Of a stretch of 64,000 nucleotides of DNA, positions 1 through 33,820 are shown piece after piece. The stretch is taken from positions 549,501 to 613,500 of the forward strand of contig OZ014420.1 in assembly GCA_963965975.1 (NCBI GenBank). Direction: 5' to 3'. Within the stretch, counting starts at the first letter, position 1. Each line of letters starts with the position of its first letter. The translations under genes and the position numbers were made by a program. The notes below the pieces were generated by a model. The model worked only from the letters and a program-made list of their open reading frames with translations, did not search any database and was not told the DNA's origin. The DNA is from Xestospongia bergquistia (taxonomy: Eukaryota; Porifera; Demospongiae; Haplosclerida; Petrosiidae).

Positions 1-303
1 CAGGTGTAAAAATTTGATCACAAGGTGATGTTATATTCGAAGATGATTCAAGATAAGGTTCACAGTTACCATTAGTCCTGTATAATATCATAATAATATA
101 GACTGTCATGATAACTAGTTAACTTACATCATATTCTCCCATAGATCATCATCAAGTTCTGTACTACAGACTGATATGTTTCTTATATGATTGCTGAAGA
201 TTACTAAAGAAAAATTAATAGTTTCTTATACATAATTAGAATATTTACCTTTGCAGCAAAGTAGCAGGAAAGAAACTGATAACATCAGATAATCCATGTA
301 CAT
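1..303 (-). CDS. RTK locus 0, 5' end only (runs off left edge)
   Basis: This is the first part of a Frizzled-domain receptor tyrosine kinase that continues beyond the window. Three exons are visible. The signal-peptide exon (about 249-303) has in-frame ATGs at 303 and 297 and belongs to the class reading MDYLM-type then CCK. Exon 2 (128-203) carries the first cysteine of the Frizzled domain. The Frizzled exon starts at 77 and is cut at base 1. The visible part reads CDQIFTPG, which marks the class II ectodomain shared with loci 3, 7, 8 and 10. Splice sites are canonical. The kinase part is not in view, so I cannot say whether the locus is intact. Confidence 0.75.
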
Positions 304-443
304 GCTGTGTCACAAAGTTTTACTCTATATCAAATTATGAGTGATTTCAATTTTTTCAATCAATGCTTTAAATTTTTGAATCAAAACTACAAAATTATAT
401 TGAATATTTATACATAAACAAGCTACTTTAAGCATTGTTGTAA

Positions 444-3271
444 TTATGGAATAGAATATTTTTTAATTGGGTCTTCAACAAAAGCAGAAGAGAAGTCAAG
501 ATAACCAGCTAGTGGTTTCATAATGTCTTCTACAAACTTAACCAAATCAGAGAATCTTGGTCTCTCCTCTGGATTATATTGCCAACAGGATATCATTAAT
601 GTGTATCTAAAGACATTATAAGTTAGAAAAAGTAAATATACTCATGTCCTGTTTCTTACATTTCCTCAGAACATGCTGCATTATCAGGACAGATAAGTCT
701 CCCTCCACTGTCTAGTAATTGAACCACACTCAATGGATCTAATCCAGGATAAGGAGTTTTACCAAGACTGAACACCTCCCAACATAACACACCATATGAC
801 CACTGTGTAATTGAATAGAATAATATCTTTGTATATGACAAAATAAATAATGTACTAACCACATCTGTCTTCTCAGAGAACAGACCATCATGAAGGCTCT
901 CTAATGCCATCCACTTAACAGGTACTTTTATAACAGCTGTACTATCAGAATCATCTCTTTTCCATTGTCTAAAGTAGTTATGTAAGTAAACATCTTCTGA
1001 AAGCCCAAAATCACCAACTTTAACAATACCATTAACATCGATCCTAAAATGATAGAGATATAATATAATATTTAATAAAGATAGACTAGTCTTACATGCA
1101 GTTTCTAGCAGCAAGATCTCTGTGAACAAATTTCTGTTGAGCTAGATATGACATTCCTTTAGCAACTTGTAAACACATTGATAAAAGTTGTTTCCTTGCA
1201 TCAAGTATAATATTATCATCACTATTTTCTGATATTGTTAAATTTGGTCTCTCTTTCTTGAGATAAGACAACAGACTACCTCTAGCCATAAAAGGCATTA
1301 CTATGTAAGGTGCTTGACCAAGATCAAGACAAACTCCAATAAGAGAAAGTACATTAGGATGATCAAAAGAGGACATCTTTAGACTTTCTTCCATAATAGA
1401 GTTGACATCTTCTTTACTGTAAAGCCCTTCCATGTAAAAGAATTATAAATAACTTCAGAGTTAATAATAGTACTGACCTTTGAGTGTTTTGATGGCCACA
1501 GGTATTGGAGTACTATTAATGACATCACCATCAGGAGTTAGTAATCCTTGATACACTATTCCAAATTCACCTTTGATCACAAATAGTATTAATCAGATAT
1601 ATAACTGTCATTATATCAATGATACCTTGACCAACTGTCTCTTGTAATTGTAATGTTGTTCCTGTAATGATATTCTTGGATAGTTGTCTTAAATATGTAG
1701 AGGAAACACGAGATCTAAATGTGTCAGTAGTACTAGACTTTTCTTTATTTCTCATATGTACTGTAGGAACATCACTAACTATATAATAGTTATAATTTAT
1801 TGATATGTAAGTAGATATATCTTTACCATATCTCACAGATGTCTTTGTATCTGCTTTTAATCTAGAAAAAAAATAACAATATCAATGTTCTTTTCACAGT
1901 AATGTCACTTAACTTTGAGGTCAAAGTTAAAATGCACAAGATAAAGTTTGTGTTGCTCTATTTAAAAAACCACCAAATCATTACCTTGTTTGTTTCTTCT
2001 TTCTTCTTCTTAAACACACTATTATAAACAGTAATATTAATAGTGTTATTACCAGGAGTACTACTACAGATACCACAAAATATATAACTATAGATGTTAA
2101 GTTATCTGATGTTAGCTGTACAGGCTGAACAGAACTTGATGGAATGTATGATTGTGTTGATATAGATATTATTGAGTGATCTGATGTTAGTAGTGCTGAC
2201 TGGAGAGAACTTTGTAGAACAGGGATGTGGAAGAAAGTGGATTGTGTTGCTGTAGATACCATACCTGATGAGTGTTAAAGAACACACATACACACATATA
2301 GATAGGTAGATAGATCATACATACATTGTTACAACTACATACAACAAGTCACAATGTAAAAACATCTTCCTTCACCATTTTGTGTTTATATTTGCTCATC
2401 ATATGGTTGTACAATGAATGGATATGTTATGTATCTTAGTTCCAACTAAAACGTTATAGACTAACAGAATGATATTGATAACCCAGCTATAATTATTGTA
2501 GTATTAAAAGTATGAAGAGCATGTACACTCAAAAGTCAAGCGAACAAGTTACTAATTGTAAACATGTTGACTTACTGGTTTCACTGTTCCAGTTATAGCA
2601 ACAGTCATTACTAAGATTTAAATAACTAATATGTTCATCTGTGTTGTTACAATCAGGTAGTCTTAAAGTTTTATCATTTCTGAGGGAGGGGGCAATTTGT
2701 GTTATTAGAAGATCAGCTGCTTGCTTCCATACATCTGGACATAGAGATTGAGATACATATTTACAAAACTCAGAGCATACAAACTGTGGTACATGATATG
2801 TACCATTGTAACCACAAGGTAAGTAATAGTTATAACAGAGAAGTCTGACACTTATATCACGACAATGCTCTGGAATAAAATCTACCACTGCTTTTGCATC
2901 TTCAACAAAAAGTCTCAAACGATATTGGCTCCCTCCAACACGAGCATTTGGCATGTAGACATAGTCCACTCCAGGTGTAAAGAATTGATCACAGGGTGAT
3001 ACTCTATTATAAGATGAATCAAGATAAGGTTCACAGTTACCATTAGTCCTGTATAATATCATAATAATATGGACTGTCATGATAACTAGTTAACTTACAT
3101 CAAATTCTTCCATAGATCATCATCAAGTTCTGTACTACAGACTGATATGTTTCTTATATGATCACTAGACACTACTAAATAAACATTAATAGTTTTTTAT
3201 ACATAACTAGAATATTTACCTTTGCAGCAAACTAGCAGGAAAGAAACTAATAGATACATCAGGTAATCCAT
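444..3271 (-). CDS. RTK locus 1: Frizzled-domain receptor tyrosine kinase
   Basis: Single-pass plasma-membrane receptor kinase, about 676 aa over ten exons. The Frizzled exon is 2576-3048 and the stalk/transmembrane exon 1985-2264. Kinase exons run from 1571 down to 444. Motifs seen: glycine loop GQGEFG, VAIK lysine, HRDLAARN, DFG, PVKWMALES and DVWSYGV, so catalysis should be intact. The stalk exon is 75 bp longer than in locus 11 and holds a doubled LTSD-containing Ser/Thr segment, shared with loci 4 and 10. The C-terminal tail ends KKYSIP, because the usual stop after NQK is not kept. The signal exon begins MDYLMYLL. The ligand is unknown; Frizzled domains often bind Wnt or lipids in other receptors, but that is family knowledge only. 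Confidence 0.82.
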
Positions 3272-3394
3272 GCAGTGTAACAAATCTATATCAAATTATG
3301 AGTGATTTCAATTTTACAATTGATGCTTCAAATTTTTGAATCAAACTACGTTTTACAAAATTATATTAACAACTCATACTTAATTAAACATTGT

Positions 3395-4506
3395 TGCATT
3401 GTAATTATGGAATAAATTATTTTGATTTACATCTTCAACAAAAGCAGAAGAGAAATCAATATAACCAGCTAGTGGTTTCATAATGTCTTCTACAAACTGA
3501 ACCAAATCAGAGAATCTTGGTCTCTTCTCTGGATTATATATCCAACAGGACATCATCAATGTGTATCTAAAGACATTATAAGTTAGAAAAAGTAAATATA
3601 CTCATGTCCTGTTCCTTACATTTCCTCAGAACATGCTGCATTATCAAGACAGATAAGTCTCTCTCCACTCTCTAGTAACTTAACCACACTCAGTGGATCT
3701 AATCCAGGATAAGGAGTTTTACCAAGACTGAACACCTCCCAATATTGTCGTTATATAGCTGTCAGACTTTTTTGTTTTAACCTTTACTTACCTTGTGGTT
3801 ACAATGGTACATATCATGTACCACAGTTTGTATGCTCTGAGTTTGTAAATATGTATCTCAAACTCTATGTCCAGATGTATGGAAGCAAGCAGCTGATCTT
3901 CTAATGTACTATCAGAATAATTTATTAGTATATACATAGAAATGTCCTTACCATATCTCACAGATGTATCTGCTTTCAAACTAAAAAAAATAAAGATGTG
4001 ATCCATGTTCTTTGAGGTCAAAGTTAAAATGCACAAGATAAAGTTTGTGTTGTTCTATTTAAAACCCACCAAATCATTACCTTGTTTGTTTCTTCTTTCT
4101 TCTTCTTAAACACACTATTATAAACACTAATATTAATAGTGTTATTACCAGGAGTACTACTATAGATACCACAAAATATATAACTATAGATGTTAAATTA
4201 TCTGATGTTAGTTGTACTGCAGGCTGAACAGAACTTGATGGAATGTATGCTAGGTGGAGAGAACTTGATTGAACAGTGTAAGGAAGAGTACTGTGTCATT
4301 ATTGATGTAGATATCATATCTGATGAGAGCTCTATATATATTATAAAATAATGTATTATATTAGTTGTTAAAGAAGTATGGACAAATATGTTTCTTATAT
4401 GATGACTGAAGATTACTAAAAAATTAATAGTTTCTTATACATAATTAGAATATTTACCTTTGCAGCAAACTAGCAGGAAAGAAATTGATAACATCAGATA
4501 TTCCAT
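3395..4506 (-). pseudogene. RTK locus 2: rearranged pseudogene with inverted Frizzled fragment
   Basis: Only scraps of an RTK remain. There are two last kinase exons (about 3420-3565 and 3627-3740), a short juxtamembrane remnant (about 3905-3985), a complete-looking transmembrane exon (about 4083-4318) and a signal exon (to 4506). The kinase core, including the glycine loop, HRD and DFG exons, is missing. Between the kinase and juxtamembrane remnants, 3790-3900 carries part of a Frizzled exon in the opposite (plus) orientation; it reads LPCGYNGTYHVPQFVCSEF before the frame is lost. The Frizzled exon is absent from its normal place. An inversion plus deletions within the array explains the layout. 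I see no route to a functional receptor. Confidence 0.8.
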
Positions 4507-4626
4507 CATGCGCATGCAATGTCACAAAGATTTACTCTATAATCAAATTATGAGTAATTTCAATTTTTTCCAATCAATGCTTCAAATTTTGAATCAAAAC
4601 TGCATTTTACAAAAATTATATTACAA

Positions 4627-7422
4627 TTATTTTTGATTTGCGTCTTCAACAAAAGCAGAAGAGAAGTCAAGATAACCAGCTAGTGGTTTCATAATGTCTT
4701 CTATAAACTGAGCCAGATCAGAGAATCTTGGTCTCTCCTCTGGATTATATTGCCAACAGGACATCATCAATGTGTGTCTAAAGACATTATAAGCTAGAAA
4801 AAGTAAATATGCTTATGTTCTGTTCCTTACATTTCCTCAGAACATGCTGCATTATCAGGACAGATAAGTCTCCCTCCACTGTCTAGTAATTGAACAACAC
4901 TCAGTGGATCTAATCCAGGATAAGGAGTTTTACCAAGACTGAATACCTCCCAACATAACACACCATATGACCACTGTGTGATTGAATAGAATAATATCTT
5001 TGTACATGACAAAATAAATAATGTACTAACCACATCTGTCTTCTCAGAGAACAGACCATCATGAAGGCTCTCTAATGCCATCCACTTAACAGGTAGTTTT
5101 ATAACAGCTGTACTATCAGAATCATCTCTTTTCCATTGTCTAAAATAGTTATGTAAGTAGATATCTTCTGAAAGTCCAAAATCACCAACTTTAATAATAT
5201 CATTAGCATCAATCCTAAAATGATAGAGATATAATATAATATTTAATAAAGATAACTAGTCTTATACATGCAGTTTCTAGCAGCAAGATCTCTGTGAACA
5301 AATTTCTGTTGAGCTAAATATGACATTCCTTTAGCAACTTGTAAACACATTGATAAAAGTTGTTTCCTTGCATCAAGTATAATATTATCATCACTGTTTT
5401 CTGATATTGTTAAATTTGGTCTCTCTTTCTTGAGATAAGACAACAGACTACCTCTAGCCATAAAAGGCATTACTATGTGTGGTGCTTCACCAAGATCAAG
5501 ACAAATTCCAATAAGAGAAAGTATATTAGGATGATCAAAAGTAGACATCTTTAGACTCTCTTCCATAATGGAGTTGACATCTTCTTTACTGTAAAGACCT
5601 TCCATTTAAAAGAATTATAAATAACTTCAGAGTTAATAATAGCACTGACCTTTGAGTGTTTTAATGGCCACAGGTATTGGAGTTCTATTAATGACATCAC
5701 CATCAGGAGTTAGTAATCCTCGGTATACTATTCCAAATTCACCTTTGATTACAAATAGTGTTAATCAGATATATAACTGTCATTATATCAATGATACCTT
5801 GACCAAGTGTCTCTTGTAATTGCAATGTTGTTCCTGGAATGATATTCTTGGATAGTTGTCTTAAATATGTAGAGGAAACACGAGGTCTAAATGTGTCAGT
5901 AGTACTAGACTTTTCTTTATTTCTCGCATGTACTGTAGGAACATCACTAACTATATAATAGATATAATTTATTGATATGTAAGTAGATATATCCTTACCA
6001 TATATCATAGATGTATCTGCTTTCAAACTAAAAGAAATAAAGATATAATCCATGTTATTTGAGGTCAAAGTTAAAACATACAAGATAAAGTTTGTGTTGA
6101 TCTATTTAAAAACCACCAAATCATTACCTTGTTTGTTTCTTCTTTCTTCTTCTTAAACACACTATTATAAACATTAATATTAATAGTGTTATTACCAGGA
6201 CTACTACTACAGATACTACAAAATATATAACTATAGATGTTGAGTTATCTGATGTTAGCTGTACTGCAGGTTGAACAGAACTTGATGGAGTATATGCTAG
6301 ATGGACAGAACTTGATGGAGTATATGCTAGATGGACAGAACTTGATGGAGTATATGCTAGATGGACAGAACTTGATAGAACACGAATGTTTAAGAAAGAG
6401 TACTGTGTCATTATTAATGTAGATGTCATATCTGATGAGAACTATCTATATATTATAATATATTATATTAATTGTTAAAGAAGTATGTACAGATTACTAA
6501 CATTTGTAACACAAACAAATAACAACAACAAGTCATATTATAAACAATAACCTTTTCCAGTTTCTATTTACATAATCTGCTATCATATTTAGACACAATG
6601 TATTAATATAACTTGACATATACTGATAACCAACTATTATTACTGTAGTATTACTATAATTACTATAGTATTACCATTCTTGGAGACTATTAGTCAAGCC
6701 TAATAGTAAACATTTGTACTTACTGGTTTCGATGTTCCCATTATAACAACAATCATTACTGAGATTTAAATAACTAATGTGTTCATCTGTATGGTTGCAG
6801 TCAGGTAATTTTAATGTTTTCTCATTTGGGTATATGATGTTAAGACGAGATTCTAAGAAAATAGCCCCATTTCGCCATTCAGCTGAACACAGAGATTGAG
6901 ATACATATATACAAAACTCAGAGCAAACAAACTGTGGTACATAATATGTACCATTGTAACCACAAGGTAAGTAATAGTTATAACAGAGAAGTCTAATGGC
7001 TACATCACGACATTTGAGTGGAAGATGAAGTAATGCTGATTCCATATCATCAGCAAAACCTCTCAGCCTTTTTTGTGAACCATAAAGACGGTTATTTGGT
7101 ATGTAGACATAGTCCACTCCGGGTGTAAAAATTTGATCACAAGGTGATGTTATATTTGAAGATGAATCAAGATAAAGTTCACAGTTACCATTACTCCTGT
7201 ATAATATCATAATAATATAGACTGTCATGATAACTAGTTAACTTACATCATATTCTCCCATAGATCATCATCAAGTTCTGTACTACAGACTGATATGTTT
7301 CTTACGTGATTACTAAAGATTACTAAAGAAAAATTAATAGTTTCTTATACATAATTAGAATATTTACCTTTGCAGCAAACTAGCAGAAAAGAAATTGATA
7401 ACATAAGATAATCCATGTACAT
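4627..7422 (-). CDS. RTK locus 3: Frizzled-domain receptor tyrosine kinase with repeated stalk
   Basis: Apparently intact ten-exon receptor kinase. The Frizzled exon (within 6720-7195) is class II (NNRLYGSQKRLRGF, LKLPDCNHTDE). The stalk exon (about 6128-6430) contains three tandem copies of a 30-bp unit encoding SSVHLAYTPS, seen in no other locus here. The transmembrane helix is followed by an RRRKKK stop-transfer run. The kinase has GQGEFG, VAIK, HRDLAARN and DFG. The donor after the HRD exon is GTATAAG instead of the array-typical GTAAGA, still a legal GT site. The signal exon has two in-frame starts (7422 or 7416). Class II Frizzled combined with the MDYLM-type signal exon suggests recombination between array members. 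Confidence 0.82.
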
Positions 7423-7573: not shown

Positions 7574-10383
7574 TTATTTTTGATTTGCATCTTGAACAAA
7601 AGCAGAAGTGAAGTCAAGATAACCTGCTAGTGGTTTCATAATGTCTTCTACAAACTGAAACAAATCAGAGAATCTTGGTCTCTCCTCTGGATTATATTTC
7701 CAACAGGACATCATTGATGTGTATCTAAAGACATTATAAGTTAGAAAAAGTAAATATACTCATGTCCTGTTCCTTACATTTCCTCAGAACATGCTGCATT
7801 ATCAGGACAGATAAGTCTCCCTCCACTGTCTAGTAATTGAACCACACTCAGTGGATCTAATCCAGGATAAGGAGTTTTACCAAGACTGAACACCTCCCAA
7901 CATAACACACCATATGACCACTGTGTAATTGAATAGAATAATATCTTTGTATGTGACAAATAAATAGTGTACTAACCACATCTGTCTTCTCAGAGAACAG
8001 ACCATCATGAAGGCTCTCTAATGCCATCCACTTAACAGGTAGTTTTATAACAGCTGTACTATCAGAATCATCTCTTTTCCATTGTCTAAAGTAGTTATGT
8101 AAGTAAACATCTTCTGAAAGCCCAAAATCACCAACTTTAATAATTCCATTAGCATCAATCCTAAAATGATAGAGATATAATATAATATTTAATAAAGATA
8201 GACTAGTCTTACATGCAGTTTCTAGCAGCAAGATCTCTGTGAACAAATCTCTGTTGAGCTAAATATGACATTCCTTTAGCAACTTGTAAACACATTGATA
8301 AAAGTTGTTTCCTTGCATCGAGTATAATATTATCATCACTGTTTTCTGATATTGTTAAATTTGGTCTCTCTTTCTTGAGATAAGACAACAGACTACCTCT
8401 AGCCATAAAAGGCATTACTATATGAGGTGCCTGACCAAGATCAAGACAAACTCCAATAAGAGAAAGTACATTAGGATGATCAAAAGAGGACATCTTTAGA
8501 CTTTCTTCCATAATAGAGTTGACATCTTCTTTACTGTAAAGACCTTCCATGTAAAAAATTATAAATAACTTCAGAGTTAATAATAGTACTGACCTTTGAG
8601 TGTTTTAATGGCCACAGGTATTGGAGTACTATTAATGACATCACCATCAGGAGTTAGTAATCCTTGATACACTATTCCAAATTCACCTTTGATCACAAAT
8701 AGTATTAATCAGATATATAATTGTCATTATATCAATGATACCTTGACCAACTGTCTCCTGTAATTGTAATGTTGTTCCTGTAATGATATTCTTGGATAGT
8801 TGCCTTAAATATGTAGAGGAAACACGAGCTCTAAATGTGTCAGTAGTACTAGACTTTTCTTTATTTCTCATATGTACTGTAGGAACATCACTAACTATAT
8901 AATAGTTATAATTTATTGATATGTAAGTAGATATATCTTTACCATATCTCACAGATGTCTTTGTATCTGCTTTTAATCTAGAAAAAAATAACGATATCAA
9001 TGTTCTTTTCGCAGTAATGTCACTTAAGTTTGAGGTCAAAGTTAAAATGCACAAGATAAAATTTGTGTTGCTCTATTTAAAAACCACCAAATCATTACCT
9101 TGTTTGTTTCTTCTTTCTTCTTCTTAAACACACTATTATAAACAGTAATATTAATAGTGTTATTACCAGGAGTATTACTACAGATACCACAAAATATATA
9201 ACTATAGATGTTAAGTTATCTGATGTTAGCTGTACAGGCTGAACAGAACTTGATGGAATGTGTGATTGTGTTGATATAGATATTATTGAGTGATCTGATG
9301 TTAGTAGTGCTGACTGGACAGAACTTTGTAGAACAAGTATGTGGAAGAAAGTGGATTGTGTTGCTGTAGATACCATACCTGATGAGTGTTAAAGAACACA
9401 CATACACACATATAGATAGATAGATAGATCATACATTGTTGACCAACTACATACAACAAGTCACAATGTAAAAACATCTTCCTTCACCATTTTGTGTTTA
9501 TATTTGCTCATCATATGGTTGTACAATGAATGGATATGTTATGTATCTTAGTTCCAACTAAAACGTTATAGACTAACAGAATGATATTGATAACCCAGCG
9601 ATAATTATTGTAGTATTAAAAGTATGAAGAGCATGTACACTCAAAAGTCAAGCGAACAAGTTACTAATTGTAAACATGTTGACTTACTGGTTTCGATGTT
9701 CCAATTATAGCAACAGTCATTACTAAGATTTAAATAACCAATATGTTCATCTGTGTTGTTACAATCAGGTAGTCTTAAAGTTTTATCATTTCTGAGGGAG
9801 GGGGCAATTTGTGTTATTAGAAGATAAGCTGCTTGCTTCCATACATCTGGACATAGAGATTGAGATACATATTTACAAAACTCAGAGCATACAAACTGTG
9901 GTACATGATATGTACCATTGTAACCACAAGGTAAGTAATAGTTATAACAGAGAAGTCTGACACTTATATCACGACAATGCTCTGGAATAAAATCTATCAC
10001 TGCTTTTGCATCTTCAACAAAAAGTCTCAAACGATATTGGCTCCCTCCAACACGAGCATTTGGTATGTAAACATAGTCCACTCCAGGTGTAAAGAATTGA
10101 TCACAGGGTGATACTCTATTATAAGATGAATCAAGATAAGGTTCACAGTTACCATTAGTCCTGTATAATATTGTAATAATATGGACTGTCATGATAACTA
10201 GTTAACTTACATCATATTCTCCCATAGATCATCATCAAGTTCTGTACTACAGACTGATATGTTTCTTATATGATGACTACACACTACTAAATAAACATTA
10301 ATAGTTTTTTATACATAACTAGAATATTTACCTTTGCAGCAAACTAGCAGGAAAGAAACTAATAGATACATCAGGTAATCCAT
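7574..10383 (-). CDS. RTK locus 4: Frizzled-domain receptor tyrosine kinase
   Basis: Apparently intact receptor kinase of about 672 aa, very close to locus 1 through the Frizzled exon (class I, about 9690-10165), the long stalk exon (about 9099-9378) and the juxtamembrane exon. The last exon differs: the tail ends FVQDANQK. Kinase motifs GQGEFG, VAIK, HRDLAARN (preceded by QQRF rather than QQKF), DFG and WSYGV are present. Upstream of the start, at 10399-10786, the usual spacer is replaced by an unrelated 390-bp insertion, so the promoter of this copy may differ from its sisters. The tail and HRD-region changes point to separate histories for parts of the gene. Confidence 0.82.
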
Positions 10384-10398
10384 GTAGTGTAACAAAGA

Positions 10399-10909: not shown

Positions 10910-13639
10910 TTATTTTTGATTTATATTTTCAACAAAAGCAGAAGAGAAGTCAAGATAACCAGCTAGTGGTTTAATAATGTCTTCTACAAACTGAACTAAA
11001 TCAGAGAATCTTGGTCTCTCCTCTGAATTATATTTCCAACAGGACATCATCAATGTGTATCTAAAGACATTATAAGTTAGAAAAAATAAATATACTCATG
11101 TCCTGTTCCTTACATTTCCTCAGAACATGCTGCATTATCAGGACAGATAAGTCTCCCTCCACTGTCTAGTAATTTAACCACACTCAATGGATCTAATCCA
11201 GGATAAGGAGTTTTACCAAGACTGAACACCTCCCAACATAACACACCATATGACCACTGTGTGATTGAATAGAATAATATCATTGTACATGACAAAAAAA
11301 TAATGTACTAACCACATCTGTCTTCTCAGAGAACAGACCATCATGAAGGCTCTCTAATGCCATCCACTTAACAGGTAGTTTTATAACAGCTGTACTATCA
11401 GAATCATCTCTTTTCCATTGTCTAAAATAGTTACGTAAGTAAACATCTTCTGAAAGTCCAAAATCACCAACTTTAATAATATCATTAGCATCAATCCTAA
11501 AATGATAGAGATATAATATAATATTTAATAAAGATAGACTAGTCTTACATGCAGTTTCTAGCAGCAAGATCTCTGTGAACAAATTTCTGTTGAGCTAGAT
11601 ATGACATTCCTTTAGCAACTTGTAAACACATTGATAAAAGTTGTTTCCTTGCATCAAGTATAATATTATCATCACTGTTTTCTGATATTGTTAAATTTGG
11701 TCTCTCTTTCTTGAGATAAGACAACAGACTACCTCTAGCCATAAAAGGCATTACTATATGAGGTGCCTGACCAAGATCAAGACAAATTCCAATAAGAGAA
11801 AGTACATTAGGATGATCAAAAGAGGACATCTTTAGACACTCTTCCATAATGGAGTTGACATCTTCTTTACTGTAAAGACCTTCCATGTAAAAGAATTATA
11901 AATAACTTCAGAGTTAATAATAGTACTGACCTTTGAGTGTCTTAATGGCCACAGGTATTGGAGTACTATTAATGACATCACCATCAGGAGTTAGTAATCC
12001 TCGGTATACTATTCCAAATTCACCTTTGATCACAAATAGTATTAATCAGATATATAATTGTCATTATATCAATGATACCTTGACCAACTGTCTCTTGTAA
12101 TTGTAATGTTGATCCTGGAATGATATTCTTGGATAGTTGTCTTAAATATGTAGAGGAAACACGAGGTCTAAATGTGTCAGTAATACTAGACTTTTCTTTA
12201 TTTCTCATATGTACTGTAGGAATATCACTAACTATATAATAGTTATAATTTATTGATATGTAAGTAGATATATCTTTACCATATCTCACAGATGTATCTG
12301 CTTTCAAACTAAAAGAAATAAAGATGTTCTTTGAGGTCAAAGTTAAAACATACAAGATAAAGTTTGTGTTGCTCTATTTAAAAACCACCAAATCATTACC
12401 TTGTTTGTTTCTTCTTTCTTCTTCTTAAACACACTATTATAAACACTAATATTAATAGTGTTATTACCAGGAATACTACTACAGATACCACAAAATATAT
12501 AACTATAAATGTTAAGTTATCTGATGTTAGTTGTACAGGCTGAACAGAACTTGACGGAATGTGTGGTAGGTGGATAGAACTTGATAGAACAGGGATGTGT
12601 AAGGAAGAGTACTGTGTCATTATTGATGTAGATATCATATCTGATGAGAGCTCTATATATATTATAAAATAATGTATTATATTAATTGTTAAAGAAGTAT
12701 GGATAGATTACTAACATCTGTAACACAAACAAATAACAACAACAAGTCATATTATAAAACAATATCCCTTTACCAGTTTGTGTTTATATAAATCTGCTAT
12801 CATATGGCACAATGTACCAGTATTGATATAACTTGACATATACTGATAACCAACTATTATTACTGTAATATTACTATAATTACTATAGTATTAACATTCT
12901 GGAGAGCATATAGTCAAGCCTAATGATATACATGTTAACATACTGGTTTCGATGTCCCCATTATAGCAACAATCATTACTGAGATTTAAATAACTAATAT
13001 GTTCATCTGTGTTGTTACAATCAGGTAGTCTTAAAGTTTTATCATCTCGGAGGGAGGCGGCAATTTGTGTTATTAGAAGATCAGCTGCTTTCTTCCATAC
13101 ATCTGGACATAGAATTTGAGATACATATTTACAAAACTCAGAGCATACAAACTGTGGTACATGATATGTACCATTGTAACCACAAGGTAAGTAATAGTTA
13201 TAACAGAGAAATCCGACAGCTATATCACGACATTGCTTTGGAATAAAATCTATCGCTCCTTTTACATCATCAAGAAGAAGTCTCAAACGATGTTGGTTCC
13301 CTCCAACACGAGTATTTGGTATGTAGACATAGTCCACTCCAGGTGTAAAGAATTGATCACAAGGTGATACTCTGTTAGAAGATGAATCAAGATAAGGTTC
13401 ACAGTTACCATTAGTCCTGTATAATATCATAATAATATAGACTGTCATGATAACTAGTTAGCTTACATCATATTCTCCCATAGATCATCATCAAGTTCTG
13501 TACTACAGACTGATATGTTTCTTACATGATCACTAGACACTACTAAATAAACATTAATAGTTTTTTATACATAACTAGAATATTTACCTTTGCAGCAAAC
13601 TAGCAGGAAAGAAACTAATAGAAACATAGGGTAATCCAT
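10910..13639 (-). CDS. RTK locus 5: Frizzled-domain receptor tyrosine kinase
   Basis: Apparently intact ten-exon receptor kinase with class I Frizzled exon (about 12935-13416), a short stalk exon (about 12400-12640, ISTSIMTQ type) and a complete kinase. The glycine loop, VAIK lysine, HRDLAARN, DFG, PVKWMALES and the last-lobe exon all read through. The activation-region variant is YLRNYFRQ where most copies have YLHNYFRQ, a histidine to arginine change three residues after SEDV. The signal exon reads MDYPMFLL. It lies directly upstream of locus 4 with no MEI1-derived DNA between them. The stalk is the same type as in locus 6. Confidence 0.82.
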
Positions 13640-16533: not shown

Positions 16534-16695
16534 GCATATGCAGTGTCACAAAGATTTACTCTATATCAAATTATGAGTGATTTCAATTATTTTACAATCA
16601 ATGCTTCAAATTTTTGAATCAAACTACGTTTTACAAAATTATATTAACCATTCATACTTAATTAAACATTGTAACCATTGTAATTATGAAATAAA

Positions 16696-18029
16696 TTATT
16701 TTTGATTTATATTTTCAACAAAAGCAGAAGAGAAGTCAAGATAACCAGCTAGTGGTTTAATAATGTCTTCTACAAACAGAACTAAATCAGAGAATCTTGG
16801 TCTCTCCTCTGGATTATATTTCCAACAGGACATCATCAATGTGTATCTAAAGACATTATAAGTTAGAAAAAGTAAATATACTCATATCCTGTTCCTTACA
16901 TTTCCTCAGAACATGCTGCATTATCAGGACAGATAAGTCTCCCTCCACTGTCTAGTAATTTAACCACACTAAGTGGATCTAATCCAGGATAAGGAGTTTT
17001 ACCAAGACTGAACACCTCCCAACATAACACACCATATGACCACTGTGTGATTGAATAGAATAATATCTTTGTACATGACAAATAAGTAATGTACTAACCA
17101 CATCTGTCTTCTCAGATAAAGTTTGTGTTGCTCTATTTAAAAACCACCAAATCATTACCTTGTTTGTTTCTTCTTTTTTCTTCTTAAACACACTATTATA
17201 AACATTAATATTAATAGTGTTATTACCAGGAGTATTACTACAGATACCACAAAATATATAACTATAGATGTTAAGTTATCTGATGTTAGTTGTACAGAAG
17301 TCAAGCAAACAAGTTACTAATGGTAAACATGTTGACTTACTGGTTTTAATGTTCCCATTATAGCAACAATTATTACTGAGATTTAAATAACTAATGTGTT
17401 CATCTGTATGGTTGCAGTCAGGTAATTTTAATGTTTTCTCATTTGGGTATATGATGTTAAGACGAGTTGCTAAGTATGTAGCCCCTATTTGCCATTCAGC
17501 TGAACACAGAGATTGAGACACATATTTACAAAACTCAGAGCATACAAACTGTGGTACAAAATATGTACCATTGTAACCACAAGGTAAGTAATAGTTATAG
17601 CAGAGAAATTTAACGGCTGCATCACGACATTTGAGTGAAAGATAAATTAATGCTGATTCCATATCATCAGCAAAGCCTCTCAGCCTTTTTTGTGAACCAT
17701 AAAGACGATTATTTGGTATGTAGACATAGTCCACTCCAGGTGTAAAAATTTGATCACAAGGTGATCTTATATTCAAAGATGAATCAAGATAAGGTTCACA
17801 GTCACCATTAGTCCTGTATAATATCATAATAATATGGACTGTCATGATAACTAGTTAACTTACCTCATATTCTTCCATAGATCATCATCAAGCTCTGTAC
17901 TACAGACTGATATGTTTCTTATATGATCACTGAAGATTACTAAAGACATAATTTTTATACATAATGTATCATGAACAGATAATTACTTTTACAGCAAACT
18001 AGTAGAGATGCCAGCAACAGAAACATCAT
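16696..18029 (-). pseudogene. RTK locus 7: kinase-core deletion pseudogene
   Basis: The signal exon (MMFLLLASLLVCCK class, start 18029), exon 2 and a class II Frizzled exon (about 17330-17818) are open. At about 17297 the stalk/transmembrane exon is cut and joined directly to sequence that normally lies 3' of the Frizzled exon, so the transmembrane exon has lost its acceptor. At about 17116 the DNA jumps from the kinase exon ending LFSEKTDV to the spacer beside the transmembrane exon. The juxtamembrane, glycine-loop, N-lobe and HRD/DFG exons are therefore missing. Two C-terminal kinase exons remain. Two deletions explain it. A secreted Frizzled-domain protein is conceivable but unsupported. 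Confidence 0.8.
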
Positions 18030-23511: not shown

Positions 23512-26211
23512 TTAAGAGAAGTCAAGATAATTAGCTAGTGGTTTCATAATGTCTTCTACAAACAGAACCAAATCAAAGAATCTTGGTCTCTCCTCTGGAT
23601 TATATTTCCAACATGATATCATTAATGTGTATCTAAGGACATTATAAGTTAGAAAAAATAAATATACTCATGTCCTGTTCCTTACATTTCCTCAGAACAT
23701 GCTGCATTATCAGGACAGATAAGTCTCCCTCCACTGTCTAGTAATTGAACGACATTCAGTGGATCTAATCCAGGATAAGGAGTTTTACCAAGACTGAACA
23801 CCTCCCAACATAACACACCATATGACCACTGTGTGATTGAATAGAATAATATCTTTGTACATTACAAAATAAATAATGTACTAACCACATCTGTCTTCTC
23901 AGAGAACAGACCATCATGAAGGCTCTCTAATGCCATCCACTTAACAGGTAGTTTTATAACAGCTGTACTATCAGAATCATCTCTTTTCCATTGTCTAAAA
24001 TAGTTATGTAAGTAGATATCTTCTGAAAGCCCAAAATCACCAACTTTAATAATTCCATTAGCATCAATCCTAAAATGATAGAGATATAATATAATATTTA
24101 ATAAAGATAGACTAGTCTTACATGCAGTTTCTAGCAGCAAGATCTCTGTGAACAAATTTCTGTTGAGCTAAATATGACATTCCTTTAGCAACTTGTAAAC
24201 ACATTGATAAAAGTTGCTTCCTTGCATCAAGTATAATATTGTTATCACTGTTTTCTGATATTGTTAAATTTGGTCTCTCTTTCTTGAGATAAGACAACAG
24301 ACTACCTCTAGCCATAAAAGGCATTACTATATGAGGTGCCTGACCAAGATCAAGACAAACTCCAATAAGAGAAAGTACATTAGGATGATCAAAAGAGGAC
24401 ATCTTTAGACACTCTTCCATAATGGAGTTGACATCTTCTTTACTGTAAAGACCTTCCATGTAAAATAATTATAATTAACTTCAGAGTTAATAATAGTATT
24501 GACCTTTGAGTGTTTTAATGGCCACAGGTATTGGAGTACTATTAATGACATCACCATCAGGAGTTAGTAATCCTCGGTATACTATTCCAAATTCACCTTT
24601 GATCACAAATAGTATTAATCAGATATATAATTGTCATTATATCAATGATACCTTGACCAATTGTCTCTTGTAATTGTAATGTTGTTCCTGGAATGATATT
24701 ATTGGATAGTTGTCTTAAATATGTAGAGGAAACACGAGATCTAAATGTGTCAGTAGTACTAGACTTTTCTTTATTTCTCATATGTACTGTAGGAACATCA
24801 CTAACTATATAATAGTTATAATTTATTGATATGTAAGTAGATATATCTTTACCATATCTCACAGATGTATCTGCTTTCAAACTAAAAAAAATAAAGATAT
24901 GATCCATGTTCTTTGAGGTCAAAGTTAAAATGCACAAGATAAAGTTTGTGTTGCTCTATTTAAAGACCACCAAATCATTACCTTGTTTGTTTCTTCTTTC
25001 TTCTTCTTAAACACACTATTATAAACACTAATATTAATAGTGTTATTACCAGGACTACTACTATAGATACCACAAAATATATAACTATAGATGTTGAGTT
25101 ATCTGATGTTAGTTGTACAGGCTGAACAGAACTTGATGGAATGTGTGCTAGGTGGATAGAACTTGATAGAACAGGGATGTGAAAGGAAGAGTACTGTGTC
25201 ATTATTGATGTAGATATAATATCCGTTGAGAGCTCTATATATATATTATAAAATAATGTATTATATTAATTGTTAAAGAAGTATGGATAGATTACTAACA
25301 TCTGTAAAACAAACAAATAACAACAACAAGTCATATTATAAAACAATATCCCTTTACCAGTTTGTGTTTATATAAATCTGCTATCATATGGCACAATGTA
25401 TTAATATAACTTGATATAATTATACTGATAACCAACTATTATTACTGTAATATTACTATGATTACTGTAGTATTAACATTCTGGAGAGCATATAGTCAAC
25501 CCTAATGATATAACGTACTGGTTTCAATGTTCCCATTATAGCAACAATCATTGCTAAGATTTAAATAACTAATATGTTCATCTGTATAGTTGCAGTTGGG
25601 TAGTCTTAAAGTTTTATCATTTCTGAGGGTGGGGGCAATTTGTGTTATTAGAAGATCAGCTGCTTTCTTCCATACATCTGGACATAGAGTTTGAGATACA
25701 TATTTACAAAACTCAGAGCATACAAACTGTGGTACATGATATGTATCATTGTAACCACAAGGTAAGTAATAGTTATAACAAAGAAATCTGACAAGTACAT
25801 CACGACAATGCTCTGGAATAAAATCTGTCACTCCTTTCAAATCTTCAAAAAGAAGTCTCAAACGATATTGGTTCCCTCTAACACGAGCACTTGGTATGTA
25901 GACATAGTCCACTCCAGGTGTAATGAATTGATCACAGGGTGATACTCTGTTAGAAGATGAATCAAGATAAGGTTCACAGTTACCATTAGTCCTGTATAAT
26001 ATCATCATAATATAGACTGTCATGATAACTAGTTAACTTACATCATATTCTCCCATAGATCATCATCAAGTTCTGTACTACAGACTGATATGTTTCTTAC
26101 ATGATGACTAAAGATTACTAAAGAAAAATTAATAGTTTCTTATACATAATTAGAATATTTACCTTTGCAGCAAATTAGCAGGAAAGAAACTGATAACATC
26201 AGATATTCCAT
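23512..26211 (-). CDS. RTK locus 9: Frizzled-domain receptor kinase with altered splice site and shortened tail
   Basis: Receptor kinase with class I Frizzled exon (about 25520-25994) and complete kinase motifs. Two oddities. First, the acceptor before the stalk/transmembrane exon, CATCAG in sister genes, reads CAACGG here, so the normal AG is lost. An upstream AG at the end of the TATATATAG run gives an in-frame exon adding KLSTD before IISTSIMTQ, so splicing may be rescued. Second, a small insertion in the last exon creates a stop right after LANYLDFS, removing about eight tail residues but leaving the kinase fold. The N-lobe insert has NSDNN instead of NSDDN. Probably functional, but transcript evidence is needed to settle the splice. 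Confidence 0.7.
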
Positions 26212-26363: not shown

Positions 26364-29177
26364 TTATTTTTGATTTACATTTTCAACAAAAGCAGAAGAG
26401 AAGTCAAGATAACCAGCTAGTGGTTTCATAATGTCTTCTACAAACAGAACCAAATCAAAGAATCTTGGTCTCTCCTCTGGATTATATTTCCAACAGGACA
26501 TCATCAATGTGTATCTAAAGACATTATAAGTTAGAAAAAGTAAATATACTCATATCCTGTTCCTTACATTTCCTCAGAACATGCTGCATTATCAGGACAG
26601 ATAAGTCTCCCTCCACTGTCTAGTAATTTAACCACACTAAGTGGATCTAATCCAGGATAAGGAGTTTTACCAAGACTGAATACCTCCCAACATAACACAC
26701 CATATGACCACTGTGTGATTGAATAGAATAATATCTTTGTACATGACAAATAAATAATGTACTAACCACATCTGTCTTCTCAGAGAACAGACCATCATGA
26801 AGGCTCTCTAATGCCATCCACTTAACAGGTACTTTTATAACAGCTGTACTATCAGAATCATCTCTTTTCCATTGTCTAAAATAGTTATGTAAGTAGATAT
26901 CTTCTGAAAGCCCAAAATCACCAACTTTAATAATTCCATTAACATCAATCCTAAAATGATAGAGATATAATATAATATTTAATAAAGATAGACTAGTCTT
27001 ACATGCAGTTTCTAGCAGCAAGATCTCTGTGAACAAATTTCTGTTGAGCTAGATATGACATTCCTTTAGCAACTTGTAAACACATTGATAAAAGTTGTTT
27101 CCTTGCATCAAGTATAATATTATCATCACTGTTTTCTGATATTGTTAAATTTGGTCTTTCTTTCTTGAGATATGATAACAGACTACCTCTAGCCATAAAA
27201 GGCATTACTATATGAGGTGCCTGACCAAGATCAAGACAAACTCCAATAAGAGAAAGTACATTAGGATGATCAAAAGAGGACATCTTTAAACTTTCTTCCA
27301 TAATGGAGTTGACATCTTCTTTACTGTAAAGACCTTCCATGTAAAATAATTATAATTAACTTCAGAGTTAATAATAGTACTGACCTTTCAGTGTTTTAAT
27401 GGCCACAGGTATTGGAGTACTATTAATGACATCACCATCAGGAGTTAGTAATCCTCGGTATACTATTCCAAATTCACCTTTGATTACAAATAGTATTAAT
27501 CAGATATATAACTGTCATTATATCAATGATACCTTGACCAATTGTCTCTTGTAATTGTAATGTTGATCCTGGAATGATATTATTGGATAGTTGTCTTAAA
27601 TATGTAGAGGAAACACGAGATCTAAATGTGTCAGTAGTACTAGACTTTTCTTCATTTCTCATATGTACTGTAGAAACATCACTAACTATATAATAGTTAT
27701 AATTTATTGATATGTAAGTAGATATATCTTTACCATATCTCACAGATGTCTTTGTATCTGCTTTTAATCTAGAAAAAAACTAACAATATCAATGTTCTTC
27801 TCACAATAATGTCACTTAACTTTGAGGTCAAAGTTAAAACATACAAGATAAAGTTTGTGTTGCTCTATTTAAAAAACCACCAAATCATTACCTTGTTTGT
27901 TTCTTCTTTCTTCTTCTTAAACACACTATTATAAACACTAATATTAATAGTGTTATTACCAGGAGTATTACTACAGATACCACAAAATATATAACTATAG
28001 ATGTTAAGTTATCTGATGTTAGTTGTATGGGCTGAACAGAACTTGATGGAATGTATGATTGTGTCGATATAAATTTTATTGAGTTATTTGATGTTAGTAG
28101 TGCTGACTTGACAGAGATTTGTAGAACAGGTATGTGGAAGGAAGAAGACTGTGTTGCTGTAGATATTATACCTGATGAGTATTAAAGAACACACAAACAT
28201 GTACATACAGAGAGAGAGTATGTGACATTGTTGACCAACACAATTACATAATGTCAACAAGTCATGATGTAAAAACATCTTCCTTCACAATTTGTGTTTA
28301 TATTTGCTCATCATATGGTTGTACAATGAATGGATATGTTATGTATCTTAGTCCTAATGAAAACATTATAGATTGATATTAATAACCCAGCTATAATTAT
28401 TGTAGTATTAAAAATCTCAAGAGCATGTACACTCAGAAGTCAAGCAAACAAGTTACTAATGGTAAACATGTTGACTTACTGGTTTTAATGTTCCCATTAT
28501 AGCAACAATTATTACTGAGATTTAAGTAACTAATGTGTTCATCTGTATGGTTGCAGTCAGGTAATTTTAATGTTTTCTCATTTGGATATATGATGTTAAG
28601 ACGAGTTGCTAAGTATGTAGCCCCTATTTGCCATTCAGCTGAACACAGAGTTTGAGATACATATTTACAAAAATCAGAGCATACAAACTGTGGTACAAAA
28701 TATGTACCATTGTAACCACAAGGTAAGTAATAGTTATAACAGAGAAATTTAACGGCTGCATCACGACATTTGAGTGAAAGATAAATTAATGCTGATTCCA
28801 TATCATCAGCAAAACCTCTCAGGCTTTTCTGTGAACCATAAAGACGATTATTTAGTATGTAGACATAGTCCACTCCAGGTGTAAAAATTTGATCACAAGG
28901 TGATCTTATATTCGAAGATGAATCAAGATAAGGTTCACAGTTACCATTAGTCCTGTATAATATCATAATAATATAGACTGTCATGATAACTAGTTAACTT
29001 ACCTCATATTCTCCCATAGATCATCATCAAGCTCTGTACTACAGACTGATATGTTTCTTACATGATTACTGAAGATTACTAAAGAGAGACATAACATAAT
29101 TTTTACACATAAAATATCATGAACAGATAATTACTTTTACAGCAAACTAGTAGAGATGCCAGCAACAGAAACATCAT
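26364..29177 (-). CDS. RTK locus 10: Frizzled-domain receptor tyrosine kinase
   Basis: Apparently intact receptor kinase with signal exon MMFLLLASLLVCCK (start 29177), class II Frizzled exon (about 28480-28953; NNRLYGSQKSLRGF), long stalk exon (about 27894-28172; contains SALLTSNNSIKFISTQS) and a full kinase (GQGEFG, VAIK, HRDLAARN, DFG, WSYGV). It pairs a class II ectodomain with the long stalk otherwise seen with class I (loci 1 and 4), another sign of exon exchange. The MEI1-tail copy B lies immediately upstream. Confidence 0.82.
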
Positions 29178-29279
29178 TGTTTTGACTAATAAAAATTTTC
29201 CAAATCTCAAAATTTTTTAATAAAATTCAAATTTTTTAAACAAAATTCAAATTTTATTATCATAATATATTGCACCATA

Positions 29280-30660: not shown

Positions 30661-30663
30661 CTT

Positions 30664-30771
30664 ACCAAGTATCTTCAAGCACTAATGGAGCAGCTGAAAC
30701 CAGACATGATCCTAATATCTTAGGATCATGTCTGGTTTTAGCTGCTCCATTAGTGCTTGAAGATACTTGGT
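30664..30771. repeat. Near-perfect 52-bp-arm hairpin (copy 2), candidate hairpin RNA
   Basis: Identical over all 108 bases to the hairpin at 23224-23331, in the same setting between a MEI1-tail copy and the 3' end of an RTK (locus 11). The flanking DNA on both sides is also shared with small differences, so the hairpin was duplicated as part of a larger segment. Confidence 0.85.
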
Positions 30772-30918
30772 GAGAACTTCAAATGCAATGATAGTCTACT
30801 TAGAGGGTTGACAATTAATTATTATAATTATATAACTATAATTATTGCAGTTAATGTGTATTGCAGCATATATTATTGTATATATATAAATATAATAAGA
30901 GAACCAGAAAAAATAAAT

Positions 30919-33820
30919 TTAAAAATTAGAGGTATTTTCAACAAAAGTAGAAGAGAAGTCAAGATAATTAGCTAGTGGTTTCATAATGTCTTCTACAAAC
31001 AGAACCAAATCAAAGAATCTTGGTCTCTCCTCTGGATTATATTTCCAACATGATATCATTAATGTGTATCTAAGGACATTATAAGTTAGAAAAAATAAAT
31101 ATACTCATGTCCTGTTCCTTACATTTCCTCAGAACATGCTGCATTATCAGGACAGATAAGTCTCCCTCCACTGTCTAGTAATTGAACCACACTCAATGGA
31201 TCTAATCCAGGATAAGGAGTTTTACCAAGACTGAACACCTCCCAACATAACACACCATATGACCACTGTGTGATTGAATAGAATAATATCTTTGTACATT
31301 ACAAAATAAATAATGTACTAACCACATCTGTCTTCTCAGAGAACAGACCATCATGAAGGCTCTCTAATGCCATCCACTTAACAGGTACTTTTATAATAGC
31401 TGTACTATCAGAATCATCTCTTTTCTGTTGTCTAAAATAGTTATGTAAGTAGATATCTTCTGAAAGCCCAAAATCACCAACTTTAATGATTCCACTACTG
31501 TTGATCCTAAAATGATAGAGATATAATATAATATTTAATAAAGATAGACTAGTCTTACATGCAGTTTCTAGCAGCAAGATCTCTGTGAACAAATTTCTGT
31601 TGAGCTAGATATGACATTCCTTTAGCAACTTGTAAACACATTGATAAAAGTTGTTTCCTTGCATCAAGTATAATATTATCATCACTGTTTTCTGATATTG
31701 TTAAATTTGGTCTCTCTTTCTTGAGATAAGACAACAGACTACCTCTAGCCATGAAAGGCATTACTATATGAGGTGCCTGACCAAGATCAAGACAAACTCC
31801 AATAAGAGAAAGTACATTAGGATGATCAAAAGAGGACATCTTTAAACTTTCTTCCATAATGGAGTTGACATCTTCTTTACTGTAAAGACCTTCCATGTAA
31901 AATAATTATAATTAACTTCAGAGTTAATAATAGTACTTACCTTTGAGTGTTTTTATGGCCACAGGTATTGGAGTACTATTAATGACATCACCATCAGGAG
32001 TTAGTAATCCTCGGTATACTATTCCAAATTCACCTTTGATCACAAATAGTATTAATCAGATATATAATTGTCATTATATCAATGATACCTTGACCAATTG
32101 TCTCTTGTAATTGTAATGTTGATCCTGGAATGATATTATTGGATAGTTGTCTTAAATATGTAGAGGAAACACGAGATCTAAATGCGTCAGTAGTACTAGA
32201 CTTTTCTTCATTTCTCATATGTACTGTAGGAACATCACTAACTATATAATAGTTATAATTTATTAATATGTATATAGATATATCTTTACCATATCTCACA
32301 GATGTCTTTGTATCTGCTTTTAATCTAAAAGAAAGAAAACTAACAATATCAATGTTCTTTTCACAGTAATATCTCTTTACTTTGAGGTCAAAGTTAAACC
32401 ATACAAGATAAAAATAAGGTTATTTTATTTAAAAATCACTAAAACATTACACTTTAAAAATTAATATGTCATTTTAACTACTATATTTGTAGCTTACATG
32501 GATGGATTACTATGGAATATAGAATTCTTGCAAATTGCTCACTACAATAATTTGTCAAATGTTGTACTAATATATACCAACCATGAGTAATTCACATAAA
32601 TTTACATAAATTCTACATTGCATAGTAATCCATCCATGTAACTAATTGTTAAATAACACATTAATTTTTACAGTGTACCTTGTTTGTTTTTTCTTTCTTC
32701 TTCTTAAACACACTATCATAAACACTAATGTTAATAGTGTTATTATCAAGAGTACTACTACAGATACCACAAAATATATAACTATAGATGTTGAGTTATC
32801 TGATGTTAGTTGTACAGTCTGAACAGAACTTGATAGAACAAGGATGTGTAAGGAAGAGTACTGTGTTGCTGTAGATATCATACCTGATGAGTGTTAAAAG
32901 AACATACACACACACACACACATATAGAGCATACATACATTATTGTGTTTGTATTTGCTTATCATATGGTTGTACAATGAAATGGATGTGTTACATATCT
33001 TAGTCCTAATGAAAACATTATAGATTGATATTAATAACCCAGCTATAATTATTGTAGTATTAAAAATCTGAAGAGCATGTACACTCAAAAGTCAAGCAAA
33101 CAAGTTACAAATGGTAAACATGTTGACTTACCGGTTTCAATGTTTCCATTATAGCAACAATCATTACTAAGATTTAAATAACTAATATGTTCATCTGTAT
33201 AGTTACAATCAGGTACTCCTAAAGTTTTATCATTTCGGAGGGAGGGGGTCATTTGTGTTATTAGAAGATCACCTGCTTGCTTCCATACATCTGGACATAG
33301 AGTTTGAGATACATATTTACAAAACTCAGAGCATACAAACTGTGGTACATGATATGTACCATTGTAACCACAAGGTAAGTAATAGTAATAACAGAGAAAT
33401 CTGACACTTATATCACGACAATGCTCTGGAATAAAATCTATCACTCCTTTTATATCTTCAAGAAATCGTCTCAAACGATATTGGTTCCCTCCAACACGAG
33501 CATTTGGTATGTAGACATAGTCCACTCCAGGTGTAAAGAATTGATCACAAGGTGATACTCTATTATAAGATGAATCAAGATAAGGTTCACAGTTACCATT
33601 AGTCCTGTATAATATCGTCATAATATAGACTGTCATGATAACTAGTTAACTTACATCATATTCTCCCATAGATCATCATCAAGTTCTGTACTACAGACTG
33701 ATATGTTTCTTACATGATTACTGAAGATTACTAAAGACATAATTTTTATACATAATGTATCATGAACAGATAATTACCTTCACAGCAAACCAGTAGAGAT
33801 GCCAGCAACAGAAACATCAT
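30919..33820 (-). CDS. RTK locus 11: Frizzled-domain receptor tyrosine kinase (reference copy)
   Basis: Best-resolved array member: 644 aa in ten exons, all phases consistent. Exons: 33778-33820, 33655-33730, 33132-33604, 32679-32883, 32089-32324, 31941-32033, 31559-31889, 31323-31506, 31123-31265, 30919-31069. Residues 1-18 are a signal peptide (MMFLLLASLLVCC). Residues about 30-185 are a Frizzled-type cysteine-rich domain with the LCYYYYLPCG and FVCSEFCKYV signatures. A Ser/Thr stalk leads to the helix at 231-257, then RRRKKK. Kinase about 335-620: glycine loop 343-348, lysine K372, HRD 477-479, DFG 497-499, PVKWMALES. The kinase resembles Met/Axl groups from memory, not ROR or MuSK, the usual Frizzled-domain RTKs. 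It is the array member closest to the intact MEI1-like gene. Its promoter must overlap the 125 bp separating it from that gene's stop. Confidence 0.88.
32490..32645. mobile_element. MITE-like element, second copy
   Basis: Homologue of the element at 20330-20485 in the equivalent intron of locus 11. The inverted ends read TTACATGGATGGATTAC and, on the other strand, TTACATGGATGGATTAC, so the termini here are better preserved than in locus 8. No coding capacity. Confidence 0.6.

Follow-up and report, generated by a model that had tools for sequence, protein, structure and literature searches.

Frizzled-type cysteine-rich domains (CRDs) on receptor tyrosine kinases (RTKs) are known from ROR and MuSK, and kinases of the MET/AXL class are likewise familiar, the TAM receptors (AXL, MER, TYRO3) having the ectodomain layout Ig-Ig-fn3-fn3. 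The published RTK of the sponge Geodia cydonium has Ig domains and a Pro/Ser/Thr-rich stalk. Shuffling of RTK ectodomains has been proposed in general terms: the accessible part of a kinome study states that domain shuffling may account for the variety of ectodomains in a single RTK subgroup, and that CRD-FZ is older than the ROR/MuSK kinase motifs (PMC8662651). Here we describe a tandem array of RTK genes in a 64-kb window (C10:549501-613500, the whole stretch of DNA analysed) of an animal genome assembly of 146.46 Mb in 21 contigs. We consider it likely that these genes encode single-pass RTKs with a CRD of the ROR/MuSK sort, a Ser/Thr-rich stalk, a transmembrane (TM) helix, juxtamembrane tyrosines and an intact MET/AXL-class kinase, and that they were built by module exchange and then multiplied.

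The array shares with ROR and MuSK a Frizzled-type CRD, with the cysteine spacing of ROR2, on a single-pass RTK, but its kinase is of another class and a single CRD directly precedes the stalk, with no Ig or kringle match in a Pfam scan of two array proteins. Its likeness to MET, RON and the TAM receptors lies in the kinase, both in the clade that they form (support 99/98) and in the motifs HRDLAARNCM and PVKWMALES-type; the same scan of two proteins found no Sema, PSI or IPT domain, which sets them apart from MET, and no Ig or fn3, which sets them apart from the TAM receptors. Other CRD-bearing RTKs of the same genome (C14:2.39, 2.40 and 0.067 Mb) differ in having a kringle beside the Frizzled (Fz) domain (by Pfam at loci L017 and L019, by eye at L018) and Ig upstream in L017; the kinases at 2.39 and 2.40 Mb lie on one open frame, and the C14 kinases group with MuSK, ROR and TRK. 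L017 (C14:2.387-2.407 Mb, together with L018) reads Ig, Fz, kringle, Fz, kringle, MuSK-type kinase; L018 holds the convergent neighbour of that gene (Fz at 31.3 bits, slightly below the cut-off) and a partial plus-strand copy, and L019 (C14:64-74 kb) has Fz (31.8 bits), kringle and kinase.

According to the accessible text on the Geodia RTK, its introns lie outside the kinase domain (PMC5793068), whereas five introns cut the array kinase. The available portion of a report on Halichondria panicea describes receptors with tyrosine kinase, Ig and fn3 domains, and a figure legend in it lists FZ and TyrKc but is silent on whether they share a protein, which makes it a possible precedent (PMC8242945). 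The shuffling proposal, as far as its accessible part goes, is kinome-wide and across taxa (PMC8662651), whereas the swap described here is among kinases that are 75-86% identical within one genome. Titles and abstract starts in the open-licence literature, a scope outside which most subscription papers fall, included no Frizzled-CRD RTK with a MET/AXL kinase and no such cassette; by that literature, both this combination of CRD and kinase and the exchange of several sensors on a single cassette at close range appear to be new.

Extent and gene structure of the array

A BLASTN comparison of one unit with C10:529501-613500 (the window plus 20 kb of left flank, 84 kb) defines 12 head-to-tail units, all on the minus strand, which run from window position 33,820 down to about -2,450, unit L crossing the left edge. 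A first-pass annotation of this DNA had described a twelve-locus minus-strand tandem array with loci of 2.7-2.9 kb; BLASTN and the gene models (2.7-2.9 kb per unit) confirm it, and the array is slightly longer than was claimed. Ten of the 12 units are full length (A, B, C, D, F, G, H, I, K and L) and two are rearranged (E, truncated, and J, scrambled); eight (A, B, C, D, G, H, I and K) are open through a 10-exon model. When the whole genome was queried with a single CRD, every one of the 13 matches lay in the C10 array, two of them being pieces of an inverted fragment in J. The units are as follows, in window coordinates, with BLASTN ends in brackets and protein lengths in amino acids (aa).

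30919..33820, minus strand: unit A, CRD type 1 RTK, 10 exons, open, 644 aa (33797-30937)
26364..29177, minus strand: unit B, CRD type 2 RTK, open, 669 aa (29154-26362)
23512..26211, minus strand: unit C, CRD type 1 RTK, open up to a premature stop close to the C-terminus, 646 aa (26246-23496)
18759..21676, minus strand: unit D, CRD type 2 RTK, open, 644 aa (21653-18777)
16694..18006, minus strand: unit E, truncated to the 5' part with a type-2 CRD, a short middle piece and the last ~430 bp of the kinase (18006-16694)
13798..16533, minus strand: unit F, full length, with a 2-nt insertion in the juxtamembrane exon (16577-13789)
10910..13639, minus strand: unit G, CRD type 1 RTK, open, 657 aa (13677-10908)
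7574..10383, minus strand: unit H, CRD type 1 RTK, open, 672 aa (10400-7572)
4627..7416, minus strand: unit I, CRD type 2 RTK, open, 677 aa (7460-4600)
3415..4554, minus strand: unit J, scrambled remnant, with a CRD piece inverted onto the plus strand at 3746-3882 (4554-3415)
444..3271, minus strand: unit K, CRD type 1 RTK, open, 672 aa counted, the frame continuing four codons to a stop (3302-457)
1..297, minus strand: unit L, exons 1-2 and the start of the CRD exon in the window, continuing left to about -2450; broken (341 to -2432)

The 10-exon model comes from an alignment of the ten full-length units, with GT-AG borders in nearly every unit. The predicted exons encode, in order, a signal peptide, a short linker, the CRD, the stalk and TM helix, a juxtamembrane segment with the first kinase residues, and, in five further exons, the remainder of the kinase. 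Unit I provides an example.

7368..7416, minus strand: exon 1, signal peptide, ending in phase 1
6724..7196, minus strand: exon 3, Frizzled/ROR-like CRD; exons 2 and 3 jointly form a phase 1-1 module
6128..6431, minus strand: exon 4, Ser/Thr-rich stalk and transmembrane helix
4627..6027, minus strand: exons 5-10, juxtamembrane segment and tyrosine kinase

All eight open models have a hydrophobic N-terminus (signal peptides were judged on hydropathy only), a single TM segment and all seven of the kinase motifs checked. The proteins are about 644-677 aa long, with 15-16 cysteines ahead of the basic inner TM flank and six juxtamembrane tyrosines. The succession of signal peptide, CRD, stalk, helix and kinase that had been proposed for the loci is therefore present in the open models of eight of the 12 units, with the reservation that its Frizzled call stays below the Pfam cut-off. 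Stalk length differs among units; the stalk of unit I contains a perfect 30-bp repeat (3.4 copies, window 6275-6376) that encodes a 10-residue repeat. The stop codon of unit C comes a few residues early. The insertion in unit F falls in exon 5, within a short AT repeat, and might be an assembly error. In unit L one acceptor is lost and exon 7 contains a 29-nt duplication.

Kinase class and the cysteine-rich domain

Two array proteins were scanned with the kinase family profile PF07714, which scored 279 bits in one and 278 bits in the other. In a phmmer search of the PDB with an array kinase, the top match was a two-kinase EGFR chain (342 bits, or 169.5 per copy); the best ordinary chains were AXL (214 bits) and MET (212 bits), followed by RON, ROS1, IGF1R and ALK, and no ROR or MuSK chain appeared in the best 60 of 846 matches. 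For a control kinase, that of the Fz/kringle gene at C14:2.40 Mb, the best ordinary PDB chain was MuSK (289 bits).

Phylogenetic reconstruction with 38 kinases united the array members and 12 sister kinases from elsewhere in the genome in one clade (100/100), and grouped that clade with AXL, MER, MET and RON at 99/98. A separate clade (100/97) contained human ROR1, ROR2 and TRKA, MuSK (1luf), the three C14 Fz/kringle kinases, and kinases from C11 and C5. The trees used four of the eight open array kinases and 12 of the 14 sister kinases, leaving out C7c (degenerate) and C2c (first exon misplaced); four of 13 other kinase loci had no usable frame and a fifth, C5_8.7, was left out, and the kinases at C1:7.31-7.39 Mb are in none of the trees. 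When the tree was limited to sequence letters taken from source records, the family still fell with AXL, MER and MET (98/93).

A constraint that kept the family together with ROR1, ROR2, MuSK, TRKA and the three kinases from C14 was rejected under the model applied (61.6 log units worse; approximately unbiased (AU) test, P = 5.6 × 10−8); this constraint group is called ROR/MuSK here, TRKA and the C14 rows having been added after the first tree was seen. An INSR/ALK/ROS1 placement was disfavoured (AU P = 0.006). The trees and the rejection of the ROR/MuSK/TRK placement uphold the earlier assignment of a Met/Axl-like kinase, not a ROR/MuSK kinase. The motifs from which it had been argued pointed to the class that the tree recovers, but HRDLAARNCM alone is not diagnostic, since INSR also carries it. 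Because the kinase is of the MET/AXL class and not of the ROR/MuSK class, the CRD on it represents an independent architecture, and in view of the 12-unit array the proposal that this architecture arose independently and expanded locally stands.

The CRD itself is more diverged. Its cysteine spacing, 8-6-12-3-7 in 10 of 10 window copies, equals that of two ROR2 chains (six successive cysteines compared, of ten); MuSK has 11 where ROR2 and the array CRDs have 12, and in three strong Frizzled-type CRDs of the same genome the spacing ends in 6. With a profile of eight CRDs against the PDB, the first five of eight matches were ROR2 (two chains) and MuSK (three chains), all weak (E 0.044-0.67). Profile alignment with hhalign scored 35.7 against the genome's RTK-type CRDs (maximum 24.2 in 100 column shuffles) and 31.6 against its Frizzled-type CRDs (maximum 26.7 in 100 column shuffles). 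One array copy, that of unit E, appears in a genome search with PF01392 (26.9 bits). We accept the domain as Frizzled-like because of its ROR2 spacing and a profile score above all shuffles, and conclude from these comparisons that it is probably a diverged Frizzled-type CRD, somewhat nearer the RTK (ROR/MuSK) sort. The first-pass claim of a Frizzled CRD, for which an HMM search had been proposed, thus holds by the spacing and profile tests and fails at the Pfam cut-off (17.8 and 18.6 bits versus 32.1).

As the CRD is most like the ROR/MuSK sort, the novelty lies in the pairing of CRD and kinase and not in the sensor fold. In the accessible part of one study, the CRDs of ROR2 and MuSK are reported to have no lipid groove, and ROR2 still binds WNT5A, presumably minus its lipid (PMC11219042); for the array CRD, a protein ligand is therefore as likely as a lipidated one. 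Matches to the Fz domain also cluster at C1:9.377-9.455 Mb and C6:370-409 kb, and the parts of these clusters that were read (L022 and L021) look by eye like tandem genes for Frizzled-type seven-TM receptors.

One kinase end under several ectodomains

A genome search with the array kinase listed matches of 75-86% identity over the matched part on C10 (at least 10), C7 (at least six, and two shorter or weaker), C2 (at least four), C6 (at least two) and C4 (at least one). Next by score among the matches listed were the C14 kinases (42-45% identity); short single-exon pieces on C1 and C3 reached 47-63%. Spliced alignment gave an identical six-piece kinase exon pattern in 12 of the 14 sister loci, with pieces of 22, 93, 331-334, 181, 143 and 115 nt within the query and introns of 42-61 nt; the kinase of C6b contains one stop. 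Upstream of the sister kinases, Pfam identified SRCR and Ig at C2:7.39 Mb, fn3 at C2:3.17 Mb, Ig on C4 and a PEAR1-like EGF match at C7:6.49 Mb (over the cut-off; another C7 exon was below it), and no CRD was seen in these upstream regions. The stalk and TM helix, with a CLKRRK-like end, are alike by eye across most sister genes.

Of the domain borders inspected in five loci, all 12 that were legible lie at phase-1 introns, two stalk starts being unclear; exon 1 and the CRD exon of the array also end in phase 1. Such phase 1-1 modules provide the textbook conditions for exon shuffling. The array belongs, as one branch, to a broader set of genes whose common kinase end bears at least four other ectodomain types, a pattern that suggests that new receptors are built in this animal by exchanging the outer part. 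More distant MET/AXL-looking kinases with other ectodomains occur at C1:7.31-7.39 Mb (L030 and L031), two of them in tandem in L030; ectodomain pieces of L031 look by eye SRCR-like and somatomedin-B-like.

Within the array, different parts of a gene have different relatives. Units A and D share 99% of positions in the 5' part and 100% in exon 2 plus its intron; identity drops to 79% across the CRD exon and returns to 93% for intron 3 and 97% for exon 4. When 10 segments were each forced into a two-way split, 21 of the 45 segment pairs showed all four combinations; many such splits are weak. Cleanly separated segments, in which the smallest between-group distance exceeds the largest within-group distance, were the 5' end, the CRD, intron 3 and intron 4; the kinase N-lobe was also cleanly split, but merely into L, with its duplication, versus the rest. 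Within these four, the splits for the 5' end, intron 3 and intron 4 are mutually consistent, and the CRD split contradicts each of them; the CRD exon has therefore moved independently of its linked flanks. Synonymous divergence (pS) between the two CRD types is 0.31, versus 0.058 in exon 7 of the near-identical kinase exons. The outer part is under weaker constraint than the kinase: the ratio of non-synonymous to synonymous change (dN/dS) stands at 0.18-0.42 for kinase exons 7-9, against 0.60 for the CRD and 0.58 for the juxtamembrane exon. We looked for diversifying selection on the CRD and saw no sign of it, with dN/dS under 1 in each exon tested. Units A, B, D and E have in common an upstream stretch of ~0.5-1.5 kb that has no match of at least 120 nt elsewhere in the 84 kb, which hints at two promoter types in the array.

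Outside the receptor genes, a second tandem array lies left of the window (~C10:537.7-546.8 kb), downstream of the receptor array, with repeat pieces that are 85-94% alike; its open reading frames (L002:694-1119, 3086-3502 and 6175-6597, minus strand) are GNAT/glycine N-acyltransferase-like by eye. Two long paralogous open reading frames on the plus strand of the window (53907-55838 and 59744-61648) have C-terminal parts that are near-identical by eye, and both match COR-A (C-terminal of Roc) weakly (21.7 and 22.5 bits, cut-off 35.3). In the right half of the window lie minisatellites (39, 61 and 41 bp), together with a long AG-rich microsatellite, at 48622-48970, 46824-47070, 37936-38058 and 49172-49387. 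Scans of the window for tRNAs and Rfam families gave no match.

Competing explanations and biological meaning

In the account that we consider likely, module exchange followed by tandem multiplication, a conserved stalk-TM-kinase cassette would have acquired varied ectodomain modules through phase-1 introns, as the shared parts suggest. The CRD version would afterwards have multiplied in tandem, while recombination or gene conversion may have kept the kinases near-identical and passed two old CRD types among the copies. The CRD would bind a protein ligand or partner, by which two receptors would be brought together; the kinases could then trans-phosphorylate their activation loops and juxtamembrane tyrosines, at which SH2 proteins may dock.

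Several observations weigh against parts of this account. The family has a long stem (0.83), the tree limited to letters from source records flags a meeting of the long AXL/MER and MET branches, and a residual risk of long-branch effects attaches to the kinase placement; a sister placement with MET/RON only (AU P = 0.44) and one with AXL/MER only (AU P = 0.35) are both allowed. Single array CRDs do not reach the PF01392 cut-off, an AlphaFold prediction for the CRD, made with 10 window sequences, is too poor for the fold to be read (mean predicted local distance difference test (pLDDT) score 38), and among the RTK-type CRDs of the genome the spacing 8-6-12-3-7 is found in L019 only, L017 and L018 having 8-6-12-3-8 and 8-6-11-3-9. 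Among the sister genes, the C6 ectodomains resemble Ig by eye and gave a single weak match (Ig_2, E 0.037), and the single upstream frame scanned at C7:6.94 Mb matched no Pfam family; the direction of the ectodomain swap is an inference. Four of the 12 units (E, F, J and L) are broken or truncated. The splice sites are deduced from comparison of paralogues, and in unit C the exon-4 acceptor of its neighbours is changed, so that splicing there would probably proceed through an upstream in-frame AG that is present. Finally, the CRD dN/dS of 0.60 (28 pairs pooled, eight open units; 0.71 within type 1 and 0.54 within type 2) is below 1 and lends no support to the earlier expectation of an environment-, partner- or self-sensing receptor family.

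What the receptors respond to can be read in more than one way. The array could encode a single kind of receptor, kept in several copies for dosage or for different tissues, that answers a Wnt-like or matrix ligand made by the animal itself during development or wound repair, a serious possibility that we nevertheless stop short of calling probable. Near-identical kinases and purifying selection are consistent with it, as is the restriction of the upstream stretch to A, B, D and E, which would be expected of differently regulated copies, and the accessible part of the ROR2 work has the ROR2 CRD acting in WNT5A signalling despite the absence of a lipid groove (PMC11219042); the array CRD, however, has no strong Frizzled profile score, and the presence of a groove could not be modelled.

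A wider and more speculative idea, rather doubtful at present, is that the MET/AXL-class stalk-TM-kinase cassette acts as an all-purpose output end for interchangeable sensors (CRD, Ig, SRCR, fn3 and EGF) introduced through phase-1 introns, the CRD exon being passed among the C10 copies while the flanks stay linked, which would amount to a germline module-swapping recognition system on an RTK. We regard as unlikely a recognition system, for allorecognition or microbe sensing, in which two CRD types, two 5' regions and variable stalks are shuffled into a private receptor set for each animal. The independent movement of the CRD exon, the retention of two old CRD types at the divergence given above, the SRCR and Ig modules on sister genes and the tandem position would all suit such a system, but there are only two CRD types, no exon tested has a dN/dS of 1 or more, and the evidence comes from one genome.

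That the array is a recent burst of copies, mostly decaying and of little function, is very improbable: against the four broken or truncated units stand eight open ten-exon frames, seven kinase motifs in eight of eight, and the constraint on kinase exons 7-9 (dN/dS 0.18-0.42). Least credible of all is a diverged ROR/MuSK family in which CRD and kinase were inherited together and the kinase motifs converged on MET/AXL, for although the CRD has ROR2 spacing, its best PDB profile matches are ROR2 and MuSK, and the best-scoring non-family matches listed in the genome are the MuSK-like C14 kinases (42-45% identical), the kinase groups with MET/AXL (99/98) and not with ROR/MuSK/TRK (P = 5.6 × 10−8), separate Fz and kringle genes on C14 group with human ROR/MuSK/TRK, the stretches inspected ahead of the sister kinases showed no CRD, and the CRD search matches the array only.

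Under the reading of module exchange followed by multiplication, these genes capture ectodomain swapping at close range: unrelated sensors sit on kinases that are 75-86% identical and share the same introns, and the exchange is therefore recent enough to date and to test. A MET/AXL-class family without a Sema or TAM ectodomain coexists with ROR/MuSK-like genes in one animal. The available portion of a Sema-domain survey placed MET receptors at the base of Bilateria; as that survey searched by the Sema domain, MET-class kinases without Sema would have been missed there (PMC6374515). If the animal is a sponge, this kinase class would lie near the base of animals, versus the bilaterian base given for MET in that portion of the survey. 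The array also offers a natural test of how a CRD acts when it is wired to a MET-like kinase.

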